From the IMG/VR virus record IMGVR_UViG_3300046507_000086, positions 1-42,636 of that record: a stretch of 42,636 nt of DNA. One strand, written 5' to 3'. Source of the DNA: a virus. Shown in pieces: positions 2,998 through 30,766 of this stretch; the stretch's first letter is position 1, and each line of letters opens with the position of its first letter. The position numbers were made by a program, and so were the translations under genes. The notes below the pieces were generated by a model. The model was given only the letters and a program-made list of their open reading frames with translations. It made no database searches and was not told where the DNA came from.

Positions 2998-4707
2998 TTA
3001 CCGCCGAGACGTTGTTTTGACATCCATATCGAAACCGCTGATCTGGAAGCTCGAGATCGATGCCGTGCTGATTTTGTACGCGAGGTACCGACCTGCAACC
3101 TGCATGTCGATCTTGTAGTCAGTCGAAGGATTGAACGGGCACGAAGCTCGATACGTTGGGGATTGCTTCGGGAGGTCCGAGGACCCGATGTCGAACATAA
3201 AGACACCGTTACTGTCCTCAAAGGAACACTGAGGGACGATGCTCTGGATCAGCTTGTAGCCCCGAAGAGTCGAGATACCGAAGTCATCCATGTCTGCACC
3301 CACGCGTTCAACGTAGGCTGGCTTGAGAACCTCAGGTAACGCAGGGAGATTCACGAGGCCCGCAGTCGGGAGATCGATGGCGAAGACTCGAGTGTCAGTG
3401 ATACCGTTCGCTTGGTCTGCCACGGAGAGCATCAGGGAGACCTTGGGGGTCCCACCGGCAAACGTCATGTACGGGGTGTTGAACAGTTCGTACGAGTCGT
3501 TGGCATCCGGGAATAGGTTCTTCAGAAGGGAAGCATCAGTCATCGCACCGCCGACCACATTCGGCAAGTCCATGAAGGACCATGTATCCGAGCGGTAGTT
3601 GTAGATGGCCGCTTGGTTACAGAAGACTGTCTTCGAGAACGAAGCTTCATCCTGCAGCGTGGCGTAGCAGAAGTGGACGAGGTTCGCCACTGCGTCATGA
3701 ACCACGAAGCACGAGTTCTGCCTGGAGCGGTCCAAGGCGTTGAAGATACGCCGACGAACACGACCATCAGCGAGGGACTTCTTGCTCATCCCATCATGCA
3801 TGTAGATGTCGTTGTCACCGAACACCATGTGCTTGCCATCGACTTCGACAACGCAGTTGGTATTGATGATTCCACCTTCATAGGGGAGACGACGGAACCC
3901 GAAGACCGCTTGGTCCCCACGGTAGTCCACGTTCCAAATCTGAGACTGGTTGTATATGATGAACGAGTTGCCGAGCACCAGACCATCTCGGATCGGGCTA
4001 CGCATCTCACTCAAGGTATTCTCGCCAGCAACGAAGGCAGGGTTCGCAGGGTCCCAATTGATAGCCGAGGTGGCCTGACCGAACTGGATCGGATTGCACC
4101 ACTTGACCATCGTCGGATACGGGACACTGTTCTTCGTCACATTCAACATCAATGCGAAGTCCAGGAACGGACGGACGACTGCTGCAGTATCCGTAGCGAC
4201 CCAGTCCCCACCAATGCCGCTGTAGAGGGTATCCGTGGAGAGGTTGCGGACATAGGGCTTCATCCCTGCTCGCGTGAGGAAGGAGATGCCGCCCACCTGA
4301 GCGTGGGACCAAGGGTTATCGTTGGTGATCGTTCCGGCTGTCGGAGTTTGGAACGTGAGGGTACCCCCAGGGTACGCACGGACTGTTCCGTCAGCGTCTA
4401 CTACGAAGGGCACCTCGCCAGCCGTGGCTGTTGCATAGGACCCAAGGAAGCGAGCGTTATTAGAACTACCACCCTGCGCCGAGTCGTAGACATTGGGGTT
4501 TGTATCGTAGTCCCCTGTGGCTGCGTCATACGTCAGTGCCGAGCGGATCGGGTTGAACATCATCTTGAAGACCGGAGCCCGGGAGATTCGGTTCTCATCA
4601 AAGATGACGTTATTGGCACCCGAGAAGGCGTTAGGCGGGAGGTCGTAGGGATTTGCGTCCGTGATTACCCCCACGCCCCCAAGCTCGCGGAGCGGGAGGG
4701 TAGGCAT
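2998..4707 (-). CDS. Large tail protein, tail tube/nozzle type (569 aa)
   Basis: A beta-rich protein of 569 residues without long helices. It has repeated strand-turn units and aromatic pairs such as FVVHDAVANLVHFCYAT and YNYRSDTWSFMDLP around 330-390, as in beta-propeller tail-tube or nozzle proteins of podoviruses (T7 gp12 or P22 gp10 role). It lies 4 bases after the collar gene and belongs to the same late operon. The general class is likely; whether it matches T7 gp12 in detail cannot be settled by reading alone. Confidence 0.65.
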   Translation of the reverse strand: MPTLPLRELGGVGVITDANPYDLPPNAFSGANNVIFDENRISRAPVFKMMFNPIRSALTYDAATGDYDTNPNVYDSAQGGSSNNARFLGSYATATAGEVPFVVDADGTVRAYPGGTLTFQTPTAGTITNDNPWSHAQVGGISFLTRAGMKPYVRNLSTDTLYSGIGGDWVATDTAAVVRPFLDFALMLNVTKNSVPYPTMVKWCNPIQFGQATSAINWDPANPAFVAGENTLSEMRSPIRDGLVLGNSFIIYNQSQIWNVDYRGDQAVFGFRRLPYEGGIINTNCVVEVDGKHMVFGDNDIYMHDGMSKKSLADGRVRRRIFNALDRSRQNSCFVVHDAVANLVHFCYATLQDEASFSKTVFCNQAAIYNYRSDTWSFMDLPNVVGGAMTDASLLKNLFPDANDSYELFNTPYMTFAGGTPKVSLMLSVADQANGITDTRVFAIDLPTAGLVNLPALPEVLKPAYVERVGADMDDFGISTLRGYKLIQSIVPQCSFEDSNGVFMFDIGSSDLPKQSPTYRASCPFNPSTDYKIDMQVAGRYLAYKISTASISSFQISGFDMDVKTTSRR

Positions 4708-12650: not shown

Positions 12651-15152
12651 ATGACTGAAATCGCACTGAACTACGAAGCCCAAGCTGCCTTAGAAGATCG
12701 CATGCTGGCTAAGGGTGCCGAGCGTTACGAAGGTAATGCTGAGTTTGCCCATAGCATGGGTGACCTGAGCAAGGCTGAGGAACGGCTGTTTGAAACGGCC
12801 CTGCCGAAGATGGTCGAGGCGCTTCGTCTTGCACACTTTGCGGAGTTGGAGAAGTCTCACCGTGGTGCTCACTTCAAGGCCATGGACAATCTGGATCACA
12901 CACTGCTGGCAGGTATCACGCTCAAGAACGCCTTCAACACGGCGACGAGTGAGGAGAGCCTGACATCGATGTATGAGGCAGTCGGCTATGAAGTCCGTGT
13001 GGCAATTGCGGCTGAACGCTTGAAGAACGCTGATGCAAAGGCACACAAGAAGCTTATGGACCCCCGGATGAATCGGTCGGCCCGTGCGAAGCTTGAAGCT
13101 GCTGAAGCACTGCTCGATCAGTTCCCGGAACCAGGCGTTGATGCGGATGCGATGGTCGGTATCGGTGCTGGATTGTTCTTCCTGGCGCAACAATCGACCA
13201 ACCTCTTCGAACACTTCGAGAAGACCGACGAAGACTCAGGTGAGATTCAGATGCGCCTGGGGTTCACCGAAGAAGGCCACGAGGCTCTCCAAAAGGTGAA
13301 GGATCGCCAACAGTGGACCACGCCTGTCTATCAGGCAATGCTCACGGTGCCGAATCCTTGGGTCGCTTTTGACACTGGTGCATACAATGATGTTCGTGTT
13401 GCGAAGACGGTGAAGATGGCGAACACGTTCAACCCGATGACCAAGAAGCTGATCGCTGCAGCAATCGAGGGTAACGCTCCGTTCGTTGGCGCTCTGAACG
13501 GTATCCAAGAGGTTCCCCTGCGGATTAACCGCACGGTCCTCGAGGCCCTGACGTTCTGCCACGATATGCGCATCCCTGTGGGCAAGCTCCCTGGTCCCCG
13601 CAAGGCAATCCCGAAGGACGCTGATGACAAGGCGAAGTGGGGCATCCGCAAGGACAACAAGATCGCCAACGCGAAGCATGCGGTGGTCTCTCGGGACCTT
13701 GAGGAAGCCAAGCTCCTCGCTGATGTCGAACGGTTCTTCCAGCCCCACGTTTTGGATTGGCGTTCGCGGGTGTATGCAAAACCTGGGTTTAACCACCAAC
13801 GTGCAGATTACTGCAAGGGTCTGTTCGAATTCGCTGATGGTGAAGTGCTGAACGAGACTGGCGTGAAGTGGTTGAAGTGGAACGTTGCCACGACTTATGC
13901 TCAGAAGGTGAATGGCCGTGCTCTCGATAAATCACCGTTCAATGTTCGTGTTCAGTGGACCGAAGACAACATCGAGTTGATCCAGGCTGTCGCAAAGGAC
14001 CCCATCAATTCTATGAGCGTCTGGAAGACTGCGGACTCCCCCTTCTGCTTCTTGGCTGCTTGCGTCGCCTTGGCGAATCATATGGAAGCCCCGGATACCT
14101 ATGTTTGTCGCCTTCCTATCGCTATCGATGGATCGTGCTCCGGTATTCAGCACTTCTCGGCAATCATGCGGGATGCGAATGGCGGTGCTCTGGTGAACCT
14201 GATGCCCTCGGAACTCCCGCAGGATGTCTATGCGGCTGTTGCTGCCATCTCTGGTCCCTTGGTCGAAGCTGACCTGAACCACGAAGATGAAAAGATTCGC
14301 GGCTTTGCGCAACTGTGGTCCTCCTACGGTATCGACCGTAAAGTGACCAAGCGCAACGTGATGACCTACGGCTACGGGTCGGAAGTCTCTGGCTTTGCTG
14401 ACCAGATTTACGAAGACATCATGGCTATCGATGATGAAAGCCGTGCTCACTTCGGGGTCACCAAGGATAACTGGCTCGAGATGATGGAGGTAGCTCGCTA
14501 TCTGGCAAACCACAACATGACTGGCATTAAGCAGACCGTGAAGGGTGCGCCGCTGGTGATGGAACTCCTGAAGAGTATTGCAGGCATCCTGGCGAAGGCC
14601 AACCTCCCGGTTCGCTGGACGACTCCCATGGGGTTCCCGGTACTGAACGCGTACTACAAGCCGACCTTCCAGCAGATCAAGACGCTGCTCTGGAACAAGG
14701 CCCTGAACGCCCCTACGGCATACAAGCCCAAGGTCCAGACAGGTTTCTCCAAGGAGTTGAACGCCCACAAGCAACGTAGTTCTGTAAGTCCGAACTTCAT
14801 TCACTCTTTTGATGCGGCACACCTCCAACTCGTAGTGGAAAATTCTAAGAACGACGGTATTCACAGTTTCTTATTGATCCACGACTCGTTCGCTGCGTTG
14901 CCGAATCAGATGGACAAGTTCTCGATGATCGTGCGTAAAAGCTTGGTCGAGATGTACGAGGACCGTGACCCCTTGGAAGACATTTTGAACACAGCCCGTG
15001 CTGACCTGATCGTGACCGGAGAGGCCACCCAGGATGAAGAAGGCGCGAAGAAGATCACCAAGCTCATTAAGGAGTTAGACAAGCTGATGGTTCCCCCGCG
15101 TGGCACTTTGGACCTCAATAACATCCTCGAGTCCCAATACGCTTTCGCCTGA
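12651..15152 (+). CDS. T7-like single-subunit DNA-directed RNA polymerase
   Basis: An 833-residue polymerase (T7: 883) that reads phage-specific promoters. Motif A is AIDGSCSGIQHFSAIMRD with the first catalytic Asp. Motif B is DRKVTKRNVMTYGYGSE with the Lys and Tyr that bind and select the rNTP. Motif C is LLIHDSFAALP with the second catalytic Asp. It ends in YAFA, close to the FAFA foot of the T7 enzyme needed for catalysis. It is followed by a terminator and the DNA replication genes. Host-type promoter and operator-like sites lie upstream, so its expression is the likely switch between quiescence and lysis. Confidence 0.97.
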   Translation: MTEIALNYEAQAALEDRMLAKGAERYEGNAEFAHSMGDLSKAEERLFETALPKMVEALRLAHFAELEKSHRGAHFKAMDNLDHTLLAGITLKNAFNTATSEESLTSMYEAVGYEVRVAIAAERLKNADAKAHKKLMDPRMNRSARAKLEAAEALLDQFPEPGVDADAMVGIGAGLFFLAQQSTNLFEHFEKTDEDSGEIQMRLGFTEEGHEALQKVKDRQQWTTPVYQAMLTVPNPWVAFDTGAYNDVRVAKTVKMANTFNPMTKKLIAAAIEGNAPFVGALNGIQEVPLRINRTVLEALTFCHDMRIPVGKLPGPRKAIPKDADDKAKWGIRKDNKIANAKHAVVSRDLEEAKLLADVERFFQPHVLDWRSRVYAKPGFNHQRADYCKGLFEFADGEVLNETGVKWLKWNVATTYAQKVNGRALDKSPFNVRVQWTEDNIELIQAVAKDPINSMSVWKTADSPFCFLAACVALANHMEAPDTYVCRLPIAIDGSCSGIQHFSAIMRDANGGALVNLMPSELPQDVYAAVAAISGPLVEADLNHEDEKIRGFAQLWSSYGIDRKVTKRNVMTYGYGSEVSGFADQIYEDIMAIDDESRAHFGVTKDNWLEMMEVARYLANHNMTGIKQTVKGAPLVMELLKSIAGILAKANLPVRWTTPMGFPVLNAYYKPTFQQIKTLLWNKALNAPTAYKPKVQTGFSKELNAHKQRSSVSPNFIHSFDAAHLQLVVENSKNDGIHSFLLIHDSFAALPNQMDKFSMIVRKSLVEMYEDRDPLEDILNTARADLIVTGEATQDEEGAKKITKLIKELDKLMVPPRGTLDLNNILESQYAFA

Positions 15153-20329: not shown

Positions 20330-22208
20330 TTTGGAGACCGATGGTCTTCTGCAGGATGTCACCAAAATTCATTGCATCTCTGTGATGGATGTAGAGGATG
20401 AAAAGGTTCTTCGGTTCACCCCGGAGAACATCAAGGAAGGTGTTGCGTACCTTCAACAAGCTGCAGATGAGGGGATGCTCATAGGTCACAATATTATTTC
20501 ATACGACCTAGCGGTTATCGCCAAGCTGTACCCAGGGTTCACCGTGGATCGAACCAAGGTCCGCGACACCATCGTTGAGTCCCGCCTCTACTTTCCTGAC
20601 TTGCTGGTCCGTGATGGCTCCTACATCAAGGCTGGAGTGTTACCGACGAAGCGCGTAGGGTCCCATGCTCTCGAAGCCTGGGGCTACCGCCTCGGTCAGA
20701 TGAAGGGCGAATACTCAGGTGACTTTAAACAGAAGTGGATTGACGAACACAGCGAGTATCCATGGCTTGAGTATCTGGAGACCCTGACGCCAAAGATGGC
20801 CGCAAAGGCTATCGAGGATAAGGACAAGTGGATCGCTGCATGGGGCAAGGAGAACTACCCCTCAGGTCTCGAGTGGCAGACCTATACGGAAGCCATGGGT
20901 GACTACTGCGATCAAGACGTGATCGTTACTCGTGCTGTGATGCTCCACTTCAATTCGCTTACCTATGACCCTAGAGCACTCAAGCTAGAGCATCAGGTCC
21001 GCTGGTTCTGCTCGATGATGGAGCGCTCTGGTTTCCCGTTTGATGTTCAGGCTGCAGGGGCGCTCTACGCAACCCTAGCGGCGAAGCGTGAAGCTATCCG
21101 CGTCGAGATGATGGAGACGTTCCCTCCCTTGGTAATCGAGCGTGTCTCCGAGAAGACAGGTAAGCGCCTGAAAGACAAGGTCATTGAATTTAACCCAGGA
21201 AGCCGCGATCAGATCGCACAGCGGCTTACTACAAAGTACGGATGGGTGCCCAAGGTATTCACAGATGGTGGTAAGCCTCAGATCGATGAAACGATCCTGT
21301 CTAAGCTTGACTACCCTGAGGCGAAGCTCCTGTCTGAGTACTTCCTTTTGGAGAAACGTTGTGGGCAGCTTGGAGAAGGAAATCAGGCATGGCTCAAAGT
21401 TGAGCGGAACGGTCGTATCCACGGCTCAATCAATACCAATGGCGCTGTTACAGGTCGTTGCACCCATAGTTCCCCTAACCTCGGACAAGTGCCTAACGTG
21501 TCCTCTGAGTATGGACCGGAGTGTAGAGCCTTGTTTCATGCTGGTAGGGGATTCAAGCAAGTCGGGGCCGATTTGTCAGGCCTTGAACTACGCTGCCTTG
21601 CCCACTACATGGCACGTTGGGATGGAGGGGAGTACGGAGATGTTGTCCTAAATGGCGATGTTCATACGAAGAACCAAGAAGCTGCGGGCCTCCCTACTCG
21701 CAATGACGCGAAGACGTTCATTTACGCGTTTTTGTATGGCGCCGGAGACGAGAAGATTGGCTCCATCGTTGGCAAGGGCCGCGTTCAGGGTAAGAAGCTC
21801 AAGGAGAGGTTCCTCGAAGGTCTCCCTGCTTTGGGAAAACTCAAGAGCGCTGTTGAAAAGGCAGCGGACCGGGGACACCTGATTGGTCTTGACGGTCGTA
21901 AGGTCCCCATCCGTTCGAAGCACGCTGCTCTTAATACCCTCCTACAGGGCGCTGGTGCCCTTATCTCGAAGCGTTGGGTAGTTGAGGTCTTCGAAGAGGC
22001 GGAACGGCGAGGTTACGTCTATGGGCGCGACTGGTATCTGATGGCATATGTGCACGATGAAGTTCAGATGGCCGCTAAACCAGAGATCGCTGAAGGCTTC
22101 GGAAAGATGGCCGTTGAGTGTGCTCGGAAGGCGGGAGAGTTCTTTGACTTCAAGTGTCCTATCGATGCTGAATATAAGGTAGGAGATTCATGGCGTGACT
22201 GTCACTGA
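20310..22208 (+). CDS. Family A DNA polymerase with 3'-5' exonuclease, T7 gp5 type
   Basis: 632 residues (T7: 704). The exonuclease domain opens with LFDLETDGLL (catalytic Asp-x-Glu) and continues with NIISYDLAVI and YCDQDVIVTR. Polymerase motif A is GADLSGLELR. Motif B is around TRNDAKTFIYAFLYGAGDEK with the finger-helix Lys and Tyr. Motif C is AYVHDEVQM with the second catalytic Asp. In T7 this enzyme uses host thioredoxin for processivity; whether the binding loop is kept here was not judged. Confidence 0.96.
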   Translation: MRQVLFDLETDGLLQDVTKIHCISVMDVEDEKVLRFTPENIKEGVAYLQQAADEGMLIGHNIISYDLAVIAKLYPGFTVDRTKVRDTIVESRLYFPDLLVRDGSYIKAGVLPTKRVGSHALEAWGYRLGQMKGEYSGDFKQKWIDEHSEYPWLEYLETLTPKMAAKAIEDKDKWIAAWGKENYPSGLEWQTYTEAMGDYCDQDVIVTRAVMLHFNSLTYDPRALKLEHQVRWFCSMMERSGFPFDVQAAGALYATLAAKREAIRVEMMETFPPLVIERVSEKTGKRLKDKVIEFNPGSRDQIAQRLTTKYGWVPKVFTDGGKPQIDETILSKLDYPEAKLLSEYFLLEKRCGQLGEGNQAWLKVERNGRIHGSINTNGAVTGRCTHSSPNLGQVPNVSSEYGPECRALFHAGRGFKQVGADLSGLELRCLAHYMARWDGGEYGDVVLNGDVHTKNQEAAGLPTRNDAKTFIYAFLYGAGDEKIGSIVGKGRVQGKKLKERFLEGLPALGKLKSAVEKAADRGHLIGLDGRKVPIRSKHAALNTLLQGAGALISKRWVVEVFEEAERRGYVYGRDWYLMAYVHDEVQMAAKPEIAEGFGKMAVECARKAGEFFDFKCPIDAEYKVGDSWRDCH

Positions 22209-27282: not shown

Positions 27283-28083
27283 ATGAAAGCACGGAAGACA
27301 CCGAAGACGCTCAAGGAACTCCTCGAGGTATCCAAGCGTCCCCTGTGGGCCGGTAAGGCTTACTGCACGACCGCAATCACGAACGTTGAGCACTTCATCA
27401 ACGCGGTGGGTGACGTAGAGTTGACCGCGATCCGCACGACCACTTTGGATGACTTCGTGGACGATATGCAGGCCAAGGGTCTCTCTGACGCGACGATCAA
27501 CAGAAAGCTGACGAACGTTCACTCGATGCTGAAGTACGCAGTGGATCGGGAGTGGATGGTGAAGATGCCGAAGTTCTCGTGGAAGCGCGAGGAGAACCAA
27601 AGGGTGCGCTGGGTTTCCGAGAAGGAAGAGGACCAGATGTTTGCCCTGCTGGACCAGTGGGGTGAGACCGAAGTGAAGCGCTTCCTGACTGTACTGATGG
27701 ACACGGGTATGCGCCGTGGGGAGTTGCTGAAGCTGGAAGCCAAGGACATCCAGGGTGACTGGGTGCGCCTCTGGGTCACGAAGACGAAGCAGGCCCGCTC
27801 GGTTCCCCTGTCGGAGAGAGCCAAGGGGGCCCTGGGGGATAAACCCTTTGATCTGACGATTGGTCAACTCCGTATCGTGTGGGCGAAGCTGAAGAAAGAG
27901 ATGGGTCTGGAGGCCGACGATGACTTCGTTCTGCACACTCTTCGGCACACTGCAGCGACACGGACGCTCGCCAAAACTGGCAACATCGCCATCGTTCAGA
28001 AGCTGTTGGGACACCGGAATATCCAGACGACCATGCGGTATGCCCATTTGTCTGATGAAGAACTTCTTGCCGCTGTTAAATAA
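27283..28083 (+). CDS. Tyrosine recombinase (integrase/resolvase, 266 aa)
   Basis: The N-terminal SAM-like core-binding domain covers about 1-100, and the catalytic domain follows. All active-site residues are visible: Arg144 in TGMRRGELL, a beta-turn Lys near 167-169, His218-x2-Arg221 (HTLRHT), His244 (LLGHRNI) and the nucleophile Tyr253 (MRYAHL). Such enzymes integrate phage genomes or resolve plasmid dimers. At 266 residues, with no added arm-binding domain, it is short, nearer to XerC/D-like resolvases in size. No attachment site could be identified. Its proximity to the par-rep block makes dimer resolution a real alternative to integration. Confidence 0.93.
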   Translation: MKARKTPKTLKELLEVSKRPLWAGKAYCTTAITNVEHFINAVGDVELTAIRTTTLDDFVDDMQAKGLSDATINRKLTNVHSMLKYAVDREWMVKMPKFSWKREENQRVRWVSEKEEDQMFALLDQWGETEVKRFLTVLMDTGMRRGELLKLEAKDIQGDWVRLWVTKTKQARSVPLSERAKGALGDKPFDLTIGQLRIVWAKLKKEMGLEADDDFVLHTLRHTAATRTLAKTGNIAIVQKLLGHRNIQTTMRYAHLSDEELLAAVK

Positions 28084-28429: not shown

Positions 28430-28717
28430 ATGTCGAACACGGAACAGAAGCTTGCCGAAGCTCTTGCAATGATCGAGCGGCTTCAAGAGGAAAAGCGGTT
28501 GGAAGCCATCAAGGCCGCTAAGTACCCGTGGCAGAACCCAGAGACCGTGGCGAGTCAAAACCGAATGAGCTACAACCTGAAGGTAGAGCCAGAGCTTTAC
28601 CTGAAGATACAGTGGCTCATGGAGAACAAAGGTGGCATCAAGTCAATCCAGAAGTTCTTCGAGAAGGCGGGCAACATGCTGGCCGATGTGTACCTAGAGG
28701 AACTGGACGCCAAGTGA
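28430..28717 (+). CDS. Ribbon-helix-helix-like DNA-binding protein (95 aa)
   Basis: Residues 1-30 form a charged coiled-coil helix. From about 45 a strand (MSYNLKVEP) and two helices (ELYLKIQWLMENKG, IKSIQKFFEKAGNMLADVYL) match the ribbon-helix-helix layout of plasmid and phage repressors. It has its own host-type promoter beside the recombinase and par-rep genes. That makes it a candidate regulator of copy number, partition or quiescence. The target site is unknown. Confidence 0.6.
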   Translation: MSNTEQKLAEALAMIERLQEEKRLEAIKAAKYPWQNPETVASQNRMSYNLKVEPELYLKIQWLMENKGGIKSIQKFFEKAGNMLADVYLEELDAK

Positions 28718-29041: not shown

Positions 29042-29146
29042 TACCAAGAAATCTTGGTTTCTCTCTTGGTTTCTCTCTTGTTTTCTTTCTTGATTACTTT
29101 ATTCTTTCCAAGAAACCAAACAAACAACCAAGAAATCTTGGAGGAA
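29042..29146. repeat. parS-like centromere/operator repeats before parA
   Basis: Two identical 14-base dyads CCAAGAAATCTTGG at 29044-29057 and 29128-29141, with several half-sites of CCAAGAAA or TCTTGG between them in both directions. The second dyad touches the GGAGG ribosome site of parA. This layout fits a partition site that also represses the par operon. More half-sites lie inside the following gene (29867-29920). Confidence 0.78.
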
Positions 29147-29148
29147 CC

Positions 29149-29793
29149 ATGAGAACAATAGTCTTCTCCTGTCTCAAAGGCGGGAGCGGCAAGACCACCC
29201 ACTCGGCACACTTCGCGGTAGCTTTGGAGGCCATGGGGAAAGGACCAGTGGTGACCATGGATTTGGACCCTCAGGGGTCTTTTTCCGCTTGGTGGAACGA
29301 CCGTAAGGAACTGACGCCCGCCTTCGCACCCGTAGTGGCTGCAGAACATCTCACGAAGAAGCATGAAGAGATGAAGGCCCTGGGGTACCTCTGGTGCATC
29401 ATCGATACTCCCCCGATGGACCATGAGATCAATCGGATGGCGATCAAGCTGGCCGATCTGGTCGTGATTCCAGCCAAGCACTCTCCGCACGACATCCGAG
29501 CAGCAGCCACCACCGTCGCCCTGTGTGAGGAGGAGCACAAGAAGTTCTTCTTCCTACTCAATGAGACCAACGGGAAAGCTGTGTCTCTCACGGCCACCAG
29601 AAGGCTCGCTGCAATGGGCCCTGTGATTCCCCACGCCGTTCCCAAGCTCAATGGGTACTGGGAGAGCATGATCGATGGCCGGACCTTCCAGGAAATCAAC
29701 AGAGGGACTGGGGCGATCATTATTGATGACGTGGCGATCTTCCTAGTCGGTCAATTCGAGAAGCCTATTCGTCAGGAGAAAGCTCATGCCTAA
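29149..29793 (+). CDS. parA: ParA-type partition ATPase (214 aa)
   Basis: Deviant Walker A motif KGGSGKTT at residues 10-17 with the signature first Lys, then VVTMDLDPQGSFSAWW (Walker A') and WCIIDTPPMD (Walker B). The length and lack of an N-terminal helix-turn-helix place it with the small type Ib ParA/ParF/Soj group. These ATPases move plasmid copies along the nucleoid. Coupled by an 8-base overlap to the next gene, a likely ParG/ParB partner, and preceded by parS-like dyads. A plasmid-type gene in a T7-like phage. Confidence 0.94.
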   Translation: MRTIVFSCLKGGSGKTTHSAHFAVALEAMGKGPVVTMDLDPQGSFSAWWNDRKELTPAFAPVVAAEHLTKKHEEMKALGYLWCIIDTPPMDHEINRMAIKLADLVVIPAKHSPHDIRAAATTVALCEEEHKKFFFLLNETNGKAVSLTATRRLAAMGPVIPHAVPKLNGYWESMIDGRTFQEINRGTGAIIIDDVAIFLVGQFEKPIRQEKAHA

Positions 29794-30094
29794 GGGTTCC
29801 CTGGATATGCTCGCGCTCCCCAAGGGTGTCGCTGCCAAGGGGGAAGCAAATCCTGCAAGTTTGGAATCAAGAAACCAAGAAACAAAACAAGAAAATAACC
29901 AAGAAAGAAAGAAACCTTGGGACGGCCATGACACCTGGATCAAGGTGAACTACGAGGTCCCTGAGAGGGTCCAGATGAAGCTACAGCACCTCAAGGCGTC
30001 CCGGAGGATCAGGAACTTCAGAGAGTTCGTTCCAGCGGCTCTGGAGGCTGCTCTGGACGCTGCGATAGCCCAGGCCGAGCAGGAGGGCTACTGA
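29786..30094 (+). CDS. ParG/ParB-like centromere-binding protein (102 aa)
   Basis: The N-terminal 45 residues are flexible and rich in Gln, Glu, Asn and Lys. The C-terminal part (strand WIKVNYEVP, helix ERVQMKLQHLKASRR, helix FREFVPAALEAALDAA) has the ribbon-helix-helix form of ParG-type partners. In these systems the flexible N-terminus stimulates the ParA ATPase and the C-terminus binds parS. The flexible part is encoded by DNA that itself repeats the CCAAGAAA half-site. Its stop overlaps the ATG of the replication gene (TGATG). Assignment rests on context and fold pattern. Confidence 0.75.
   Translation: MPKGSLDMLALPKGVAAKGEANPASLESRNQETKQENNQERKKPWDGHDTWIKVNYEVPERVQMKLQHLKASRRIRNFREFVPAALEAALDAAIAQAEQEGY
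29867..29920. repeat. parS-like half-sites inside the partner gene
   Basis: Four CAAGAAA units (29868, 29876, 29888 and 29900, counting from the CAAG) and an inverted CCTTGG at the end, coding for the Gln/Glu/Lys-rich linker. The same word makes up the dyads before parA. Confidence 0.6.
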
Positions 30095-30666
30095 TGGGAG
30101 ACGACATTCGACAGATCGATCTGTTCCAGGCTGAGACCACTTGGTTCCATATCTTCAGTTCAATGGTCAACAGCGGGGACGCAGGGAAGCTGGGGGGCAA
30201 CGCCTTCCTGATCTACTGCATCATCAAGGGGCACACGAACTTCAAGACCGGCAGAGCATTTCCGTCCATTGATGCAATCGTAGAGAAGGCACGCCTGTCT
30301 AAGTCCCAGGTGCTACGCGAGCTAGATACCCTCGAGGACGCGGGCTATATCACCCGAACCAAGGAAGGGAGGAAGAACGTCTACACCCTCCGTGAGAAGG
30401 TAGGGATCACCGACGAGAAGGGACGGCCTGTTGCAGACGCAACGTGGGACTATGTGCCAGATGGTGTGAAAGGGGCCGTGGCTGACATCAGGAACGTGGT
30501 TATGTCCGGAGACTTCGACGGTGCCAAGATCATCAAGATCGAGAATCTGACCGTGAACTACTTCAGAGACCACTCCTCCCAATGGAACATGCAGTCCCTC
30601 CTGGAGAACATGGACAAGCTGACGCCGGAGATGAAAGCAATGCTCTTGAAGAACCTGAAACTATAG
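30094..30666 (+). CDS. Plasmid-type replication initiator (190 aa)
   Basis: Residues about 35-105 form a winged helix (GKLGGNAFLIYCIIKGH, then FPSIDAIVEKARLSKSQVLRELDTLEDAGYI in parts, then a basic wing RTKEGRKNVYTL), as in plasmid Rep and RepL-like initiators. The C-terminal half is helical and less conserved. It is coupled to the partition partner gene. Its stop codon lies within the first of a row of direct repeats (iterons), followed by an A/T-rich tract and a DnaA box. Gene order and repeats together make an initiator the best reading; a plain transcription regulator is the alternative. Confidence 0.8.
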   Translation: MGDDIRQIDLFQAETTWFHIFSSMVNSGDAGKLGGNAFLIYCIIKGHTNFKTGRAFPSIDAIVEKARLSKSQVLRELDTLEDAGYITRTKEGRKNVYTLREKVGITDEKGRPVADATWDYVPDGVKGAVADIRNVVMSGDFDGAKIIKIENLTVNYFRDHSSQWNMQSLLENMDKLTPEMKAMLLKNLKL

Positions 30667-30766
30667 GTGTCACCTGCGATACGTGTCACCCGTGCGACTT
30701 GTCCCTGTTTAATAGGTGTCAGGCATGGAACCTATTCGGGGGGTATAGGTGTCACCCAAGACACCC
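30663..30766. repeat. Iterons of a plasmid-type origin
   Basis: Direct repeats of ATAGGTGTCACC: 30663-30674 (exact), 30679-30690 (one change), 30712-30723 (two changes) and 30745-30756 (exact). A degenerate copy lies near 30695 and an inverted core GACACC at 30760-30765. Starts are 16 or about 33 bases apart, near multiples of one to one and a half helix turns. Such repeats bind the initiator encoded directly upstream. Confidence 0.85.

Follow-up and report, generated by a model that had tools for sequence, protein, structure and literature searches.

In Bacillus subtilis, parS lies inside spo0J. Among replication systems, the lambda origin is located in gene O, the gene of its binding protein (PMC5043065), and the Rep boxes of pSK41 lie inside rep, where the origin DNA encodes a linker that is dispensable for replication (PMC5703833). 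In the TP228 partition system, ParG has a ribbon-helix-helix domain and N-terminal tails that are flexible; it both coats parH, a series of degenerate tetramer boxes, and acts as a repressor at an operator located upstream of parFG (PMC7308502). In the delta/omega system of pSM19035, a ribbon-helix-helix ParB occupies contiguous short repeats overlapping promoters, and at least four repeats are required for full ParA activation (PMC9499535). The extrachromosomal prophage RedRock is described as having two parS loci (parS-L and parS-R) with eight 8-bp direct repeats (PMC7157519). In replication, it is already known that a site can lie within the gene of the protein that binds it, and short partition repeats around parA are known as well.

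The locus described here lies in a 42,636-nucleotide stretch of phage DNA that was analysed as a whole and is called the window below. We consider it likely, with good confidence, that this temperate phage carries a ParF-type (type Ib) partition cassette whose small partner protein would bind two arrays of a 4-bp-phased word, one over the parA promoter and ribosome site and the other within the disordered linker of the partner's own gene. The cassette resembles TP228 ParF-ParG-parH in that ParF is among the best structure matches of the window's ParA and a small partner, with a flexible N-terminal tail, is specified by the gene that follows just downstream. In contrast to TP228, the second array is within the partner coding sequence, where it would dictate the linker, and the sequence of the partner domain is not recognisably that of ParG. 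The window shares with lambda O and pSK41 Rep the presence of sites within the gene of their own DNA-binding protein; however, those are origins and initiators, whereas the gene here encodes a candidate partition protein, and its word changes in step with that of another array, which is non-coding. The heptad parS of pSM19035 has a 7-bp unit and promoter sites only, whereas the window has steps in multiples of 4 bp and one of its arrays within coding sequence. The periodicity of 8 bp in RedRock recurs in the window's cousins, but the accessible part of the RedRock and actinobacteriophage parABS account does not describe an overlap with a coding linker, and the ParA there is ~30% identical to that of the window. 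In the open-access literature, we found neither a direct precedent for partition sites inside parA or parB coding sequence nor an earlier report of a partition array within a partner linker that covaries with an operator, an absence that is weak evidence.

Table. Features of the partition cassette and its surroundings, in window positions.
Feature	Position	Strand	Remarks
Integrase gene	27283-28083		upstream of parA
Upstream dyad 1, CCAAGAAATCTTGG	29044-29057		6-bp arms, central AA; exact copy
Tandem 12-bp units, TCTTGGTTTCTC	29052-29092	-	CTTG cores at 29053, 29065, 29077 and 29089, exact 12-bp steps
Putative parA promoter	29078-29105	+	TTGTTT, 16 nt, TATTCT; read by eye
CAAG half-site between dyads	29109-29112	+	within CCAAGAAACC
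Upstream dyad 2, CCAAGAAATCTTGG	29128-29141		exact copy, running into the parA Shine-Dalgarno
parA	29149-29793	+	214-aa ParF-type Walker ATPase; KGGSGKTT at N-terminus
Partner gene	29786-30094	+	candidate centromere-binding protein, 102 aa; overlaps parA end
Partner N-terminal motif	29786-29866	+	SLDxLVxxKGxAAPA; probable ParA contact
Embedded array	29836-29920	+	CAAG at 29836, 29856, 29868, 29876, 29888 and 29900 (the last four as CAAGAAA); CTTG at 29916
Partner C-terminal domain	29918-30091	+	W45-Y102; putative ribbon-helix-helix
Replication-initiator-like gene	30094-30666	+	HTH_36; directly 3' of partner gene

The ParA of the window matched Pfam AAA_31 (3.6e-13) and phrog_164 ParA (7e-29), and its best solved-structure matches in the PDB were TP228 ParA/ParF (5u1g and 4dzz, E 5e-18 to 2e-17). 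It has the properties of a ParF-type ATPase, being a short Walker ATPase with a deviant Walker A and without an N-terminal HTH. The sequence-only reading had called the dyads before parA parS-like, which is correct if the term covers any centromere, but not in the narrow sense. Canonical parS TGTTTCACGTGAAACA had no match in the window with up to 3 mismatches allowed, the 102-aa partner had zero ParB Pfam matches and is not a ParB with HTH and CTPase domains, and ParA is nearest to ParF; a chromosomal-type ParABS system was therefore rejected. The partner was also rejected as a replication initiator, since it has no replication domain and the initiator-like gene is a separate one that follows it. 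The gene order parA-partner-rep is found in several plasmid cousins as well. Just past the initiator-like gene, four iteron-like repeats, TATAGGTGTCACC (30662-30756), form a candidate plasmid-type origin that would adjoin the partition cassette in a phage-plasmid-like arrangement. The integrase gene and the partition/replication cassette (29149-30666) occur in the same podovirus-like genome, the remainder of which includes RNA polymerase (a single-subunit enzyme, gene at 12651-15152), primase/helicase, DNA polymerase, portal and scaffold genes. A small ORF upstream of parA (28430-28717) ends in a sequence that resembles the end of the upstream ORF in L031-L035 (WLMENKGGIKSIQKFFEKA / WIVENVGGMKSMQVFLDRA); it had a weak CcdA-like match and is possibly a second small DNA-binding protein.

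Upstream of parA, both dyads and the half-sites between them were as the sequence-only reading had described, with the second dyad running into GGAGG, the parA Shine-Dalgarno (29140-29144). The CTTG cores of the tandem units share one 4-bp phase with the dyads, and all eight promoter cores in the window fall in one phase modulo 4. CAAGAAA occurs in this cluster at 29045, 29086 (minus strand), 29109 and 29129; the whole 42.6 kb has 12 occurrences, where 6.2 would be expected, and the upstream and linker clusters account for 8 of them. Thus, the repeat unit of the window is a 4-bp-phased array of CAAG/CTTG cores rather than a single dyad, and short phased repeats of the kind that mark a centromere or operator near parA are present both upstream and in the partner gene. 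The core CTTGGAG of the second dyad, which abuts the Shine-Dalgarno, is kept in L002, L003, L031, L037 and L051, and reads CTAGGAG in L001. The upstream array overlays the putative parA promoter, whose TTTATTCT-like box is also found in L005, L027, L031 and L051; a consensus promoter scan did not list this promoter. In L003, L028 and L036, TTTACCGTATACGGTTGAACCAACC with a perfect CCGTATACGG dyad is present upstream of parA; L028 and L036 have few CAAG cores before parA, and TTTACCGTATACGGTTGAACCAACC/CCGTATACGG is possibly another operator.

The partner consists of a conserved N-terminal motif, a variable repeat-encoded linker and a two-helix C-terminal domain. The N-terminal motif is common to the ribbon-helix-helix partners of plasmid cousins (hhalign E 5e-5, 19 columns), most of which match RHH_10. 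The C-terminal domain had no Pfam family match, and searching the PDB with the partner, by sequence and by fold, returned nothing usable. The structure model (mean pLDDT 65) contains helices at 49-71 and 78-99, with the ribbon not resolved; given the lack of a Pfam match and of a modelled ribbon, we treat the ribbon-helix-helix assignment as putative. Asn55 is in the putative DNA-binding strand IKVNYEV and aligns with Gly in L001 only; it may help set binding specificity, and the model is too weak to place it on a strand. An additional small ORF separates parA from the partner gene in L028 alone (3638-3806). The linker peptide is of low complexity, variable in length and poorly conserved. Its DNA contains the four CAAGAAA words that the sequence-only reading had located there, all within 29868-29906, which encodes SRNQETKQENNQERK; the coding array reaches slightly beyond these words in either direction, starting with CAAG at 29836 and ending with CCTTGG at 29915-29920. 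All of its cores, including 6 of 6 linker CAAG, share one 4-bp phase. Synonymous recoding of the window linker with uniform codons gave a mean of 0.64 CAAGAAA versus the 4 observed (p=2.5e-4), and recoding with the phage's own codon use gave a mean of 0.10 (p=5e-5). A third phased CAAG cluster (21486-21582, within the DNA polymerase ORF) was without a common longer word and was judged to be a chance occurrence.

We compared the two arrays across relatives, as the sequence-only reading had proposed. Viral contig scans gave 15 cassettes, window included, with both regions readable; a contig scan of genomes with a ParA alignment gave zero relatives, and a DNA-level search among isolated phages gave no match. 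The word varies by phage: the window and L051 have CAAGAAA, L001 has CTAGAAA and nearly all others have CAAGGAA. Upstream and linker counts were 4 + 4 CAAGAAA in the window, 3 + 3 CTAGAAA in L001 and 2 + 2 CAAGAAA in L051. Sharing of 7-mers between the upstream region and its own linker was 0.193, compared to 0.122 with other linkers (permutation p=1e-4 for 11 distinct cassettes), and there was no signal in the control regions (C-terminal domain, p=0.46; parA body, p=0.28). Across relatives, the word in the linker tracks the one upstream of parA, with a few minor mismatches: in L028 and in L037, a single upstream CAAGAAA accompanies a CAAGGAA linker, and in L027 one CAAGAAA occurs in the linker only. 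The window groups with L001 in the ParA tree (99/98) and L051 is elsewhere; were CAAGGAA the ancestral word, CAAGAAA would have had at least two origins and both arrays would have switched jointly at least three times. The closely related set contains only ~3 word switches, which limits statistical independence. L001 is the closest relative, with 92% identity in ParA, yet both of its arrays carry CTAGAAA. Two aligned linker Gln codons have become Leu codons (CAA to TTA and CTA), so that Gln-Glu in the window linker corresponds to Leu-Glu in that of L001. Outside the two arrays, the 26.7-kb L001 contig contains no CTAGAAA pairs.

More distant cassettes also have a second array, at varying positions. 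In plasmid cousins, with ParA about 41-45% identical, an 8-bp-stepped ACGAAAGC-like word before parA is found again in the last parA codons and the gap to the partner, where it encodes a basic, Lys/Arg-rich ParA tail. This parA-end region matched its own upstream word better than the words of other plasmids (p=7e-4; controls null). Recurrence of upstream ACGAAAGC/GTGCTTTT-like words at the parA 3' end was seen in L066-L070 and L076-L081, which are plasmids of Xanthomonas, Methylomagnum, Methylococcus, Acidiphilium, E. coli and others. Distant phages vary in where the second cognate array lies: L141 and L143 have it at the parA 3' end, L144 in the partner linker, L065 in the gap preceding the partner gene and L136 beyond that gene. 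The repeats in L141 and L143 (about 3100-3165) match the parA upstream word and overlap the last parA codons, implying that the ParA tail is repeat-encoded. In L144, an unrelated ACGTGACA-type word is repeated in 8-bp steps before parA and inside the partner linker (3192-3366), apparently an independent case of an embedded array. Over 18 distant cassettes, the second region matched its own upstream region with p=5e-5 (parA body, p=0.06); L135, L142 and L145 showed zero excess. The positions in the cousins imply that the rule is two cognate arrays flanking parA; in the window's group, the second sits inside the partner linker.

Three other explanations of the embedded array were weighed against these data. 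Selection might act on the peptide, with a charged Gln/Glu/Lys linker needed, for example, for ParA stimulation and the words a by-product of codon choice; in keeping with this, the flexible N-terminal tails of ParG modulate DNA binding and stimulate ParF (PMC7308502). However, the register of the array is that of the DNA word and not of the codons. Spacings between like words in the linkers are all multiples of 4 (8, 12, 16, 20, 24, 28, 32, 44 and 60), and among the close cassettes a single modulo-4 phase per array accounts for 61 of the 65 cores upstream and 54 of the 56 in linkers, a count based on CAAG/CTTG cores (CTAG for L001) that none of 100,000 random draws came near. In the autocorrelation of the linkers, the maxima are at lags 4, 8, 12 and 16 and there is a deficit at lag 6, which is a periodicity of 4 rather than 3; for the adjoining C-terminal domain, the maxima are at lags 6, 9 and 12, the pattern of ordinary coding DNA. 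The CAAGGAA clades read the word in all three frames, as Thr-Lys-Glu, Pro-Arg-Lys and Asn-Gln-Gly, and the L001 word is used in two frames only; the third would give a TAG stop. The words exceed the synonymous expectation (p < 0.05) in 13 of 15 loci, failing in L002 (p 0.09-0.14) and, with its own codon use, L028 (p 0.06). Glu codons are GAA:GAG = 54:12 in the linkers versus 16:69 in the adjacent C-terminal domain. The 4-bp register, use of all frames and Glu codon bias together imply that the DNA word is kept and the peptide follows. Moreover, the Gln-to-Leu changes in L001 preserve the DNA word, and the upstream array has the same word and register without being coding. We therefore give almost no credence to selection on the peptide. 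These observations instead bear out the earlier suggestion that one sequence may be both DNA site and linker code.

Homogenisation, by which tetranucleotide slippage and ectopic conversion would spread the promoter repeats to a tolerant linker and let both arrays drift together, with the promoter array alone at work, would fit the 4-bp unit and the low-complexity, length-variable, poorly conserved linker. Yet the longest tracts common to an upstream region and its own linker are ~9-16 nt and often in opposite orientation, which excludes block copying. The array is also kept in every related cassette with the linker read, and distant cousins with unrelated words have rebuilt a second cognate array. 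The array is missing from the cassette-less homologue L095 (from 2387), where a homologue of the partner C-terminal domain lies downstream of an unrelated ParA/RHH pair and has an N-terminus without the array, a natural case of loss. We consider homogenisation improbable. Finally, the word might be read by a host nucleoid protein, by the downstream replication initiator or, as purine-rich AAGGAA words in mRNA, in translation. A replication-initiator-like gene with its own repeats does lie just downstream, but those repeats are of a different sequence, the word differs among close relatives and tracks the parA operator, and the words of L144, L141 and L143 are unlike AAGGAA, making another reader very unlikely.

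We thus favour binding of both arrays by the partner. On the promoter array, the partner would autorepress parA, and this array is probably part of the centromere too; on both arrays, it would form the partition complex moved by ParA, a scheme that parallels the two roles of ParG in TP228. The embedded array may work as a centromere, an operator or both, while its DNA would also encode the disordered Gln/Glu/Lys linker joining the ParA-contacting motif and the DNA-binding domain. Since this linker tolerates almost any hydrophilic peptide, the DNA word would dictate its amino acids, and a change in binding specificity would be accompanied by change of both arrays together.

In this cassette, one DNA would be used twice, as binding site and as linker code, and natural variants change both uses together. 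The window and L001, with ParA 92% identical and different words, amount to a natural specificity-swap experiment, and the cassette lends itself to testing how the specificity of partition, and with it incompatibility, could be switched through a few strand residues and two arrays. More broadly, ParF-type cassettes may routinely write a second centromere array into coding DNA, as partner linker or ParA tail, in a 4- or 8-bp register, such that their own site dictates protein sequence and a switch of the two arrays, together with one or two residues of the strand, would create a new incompatibility specificity; we regard this generalisation as evenly poised between right and wrong. The cassette is also a warning that fast-evolving, low-complexity linkers may be shaped by selection at the level of DNA and not of protein.
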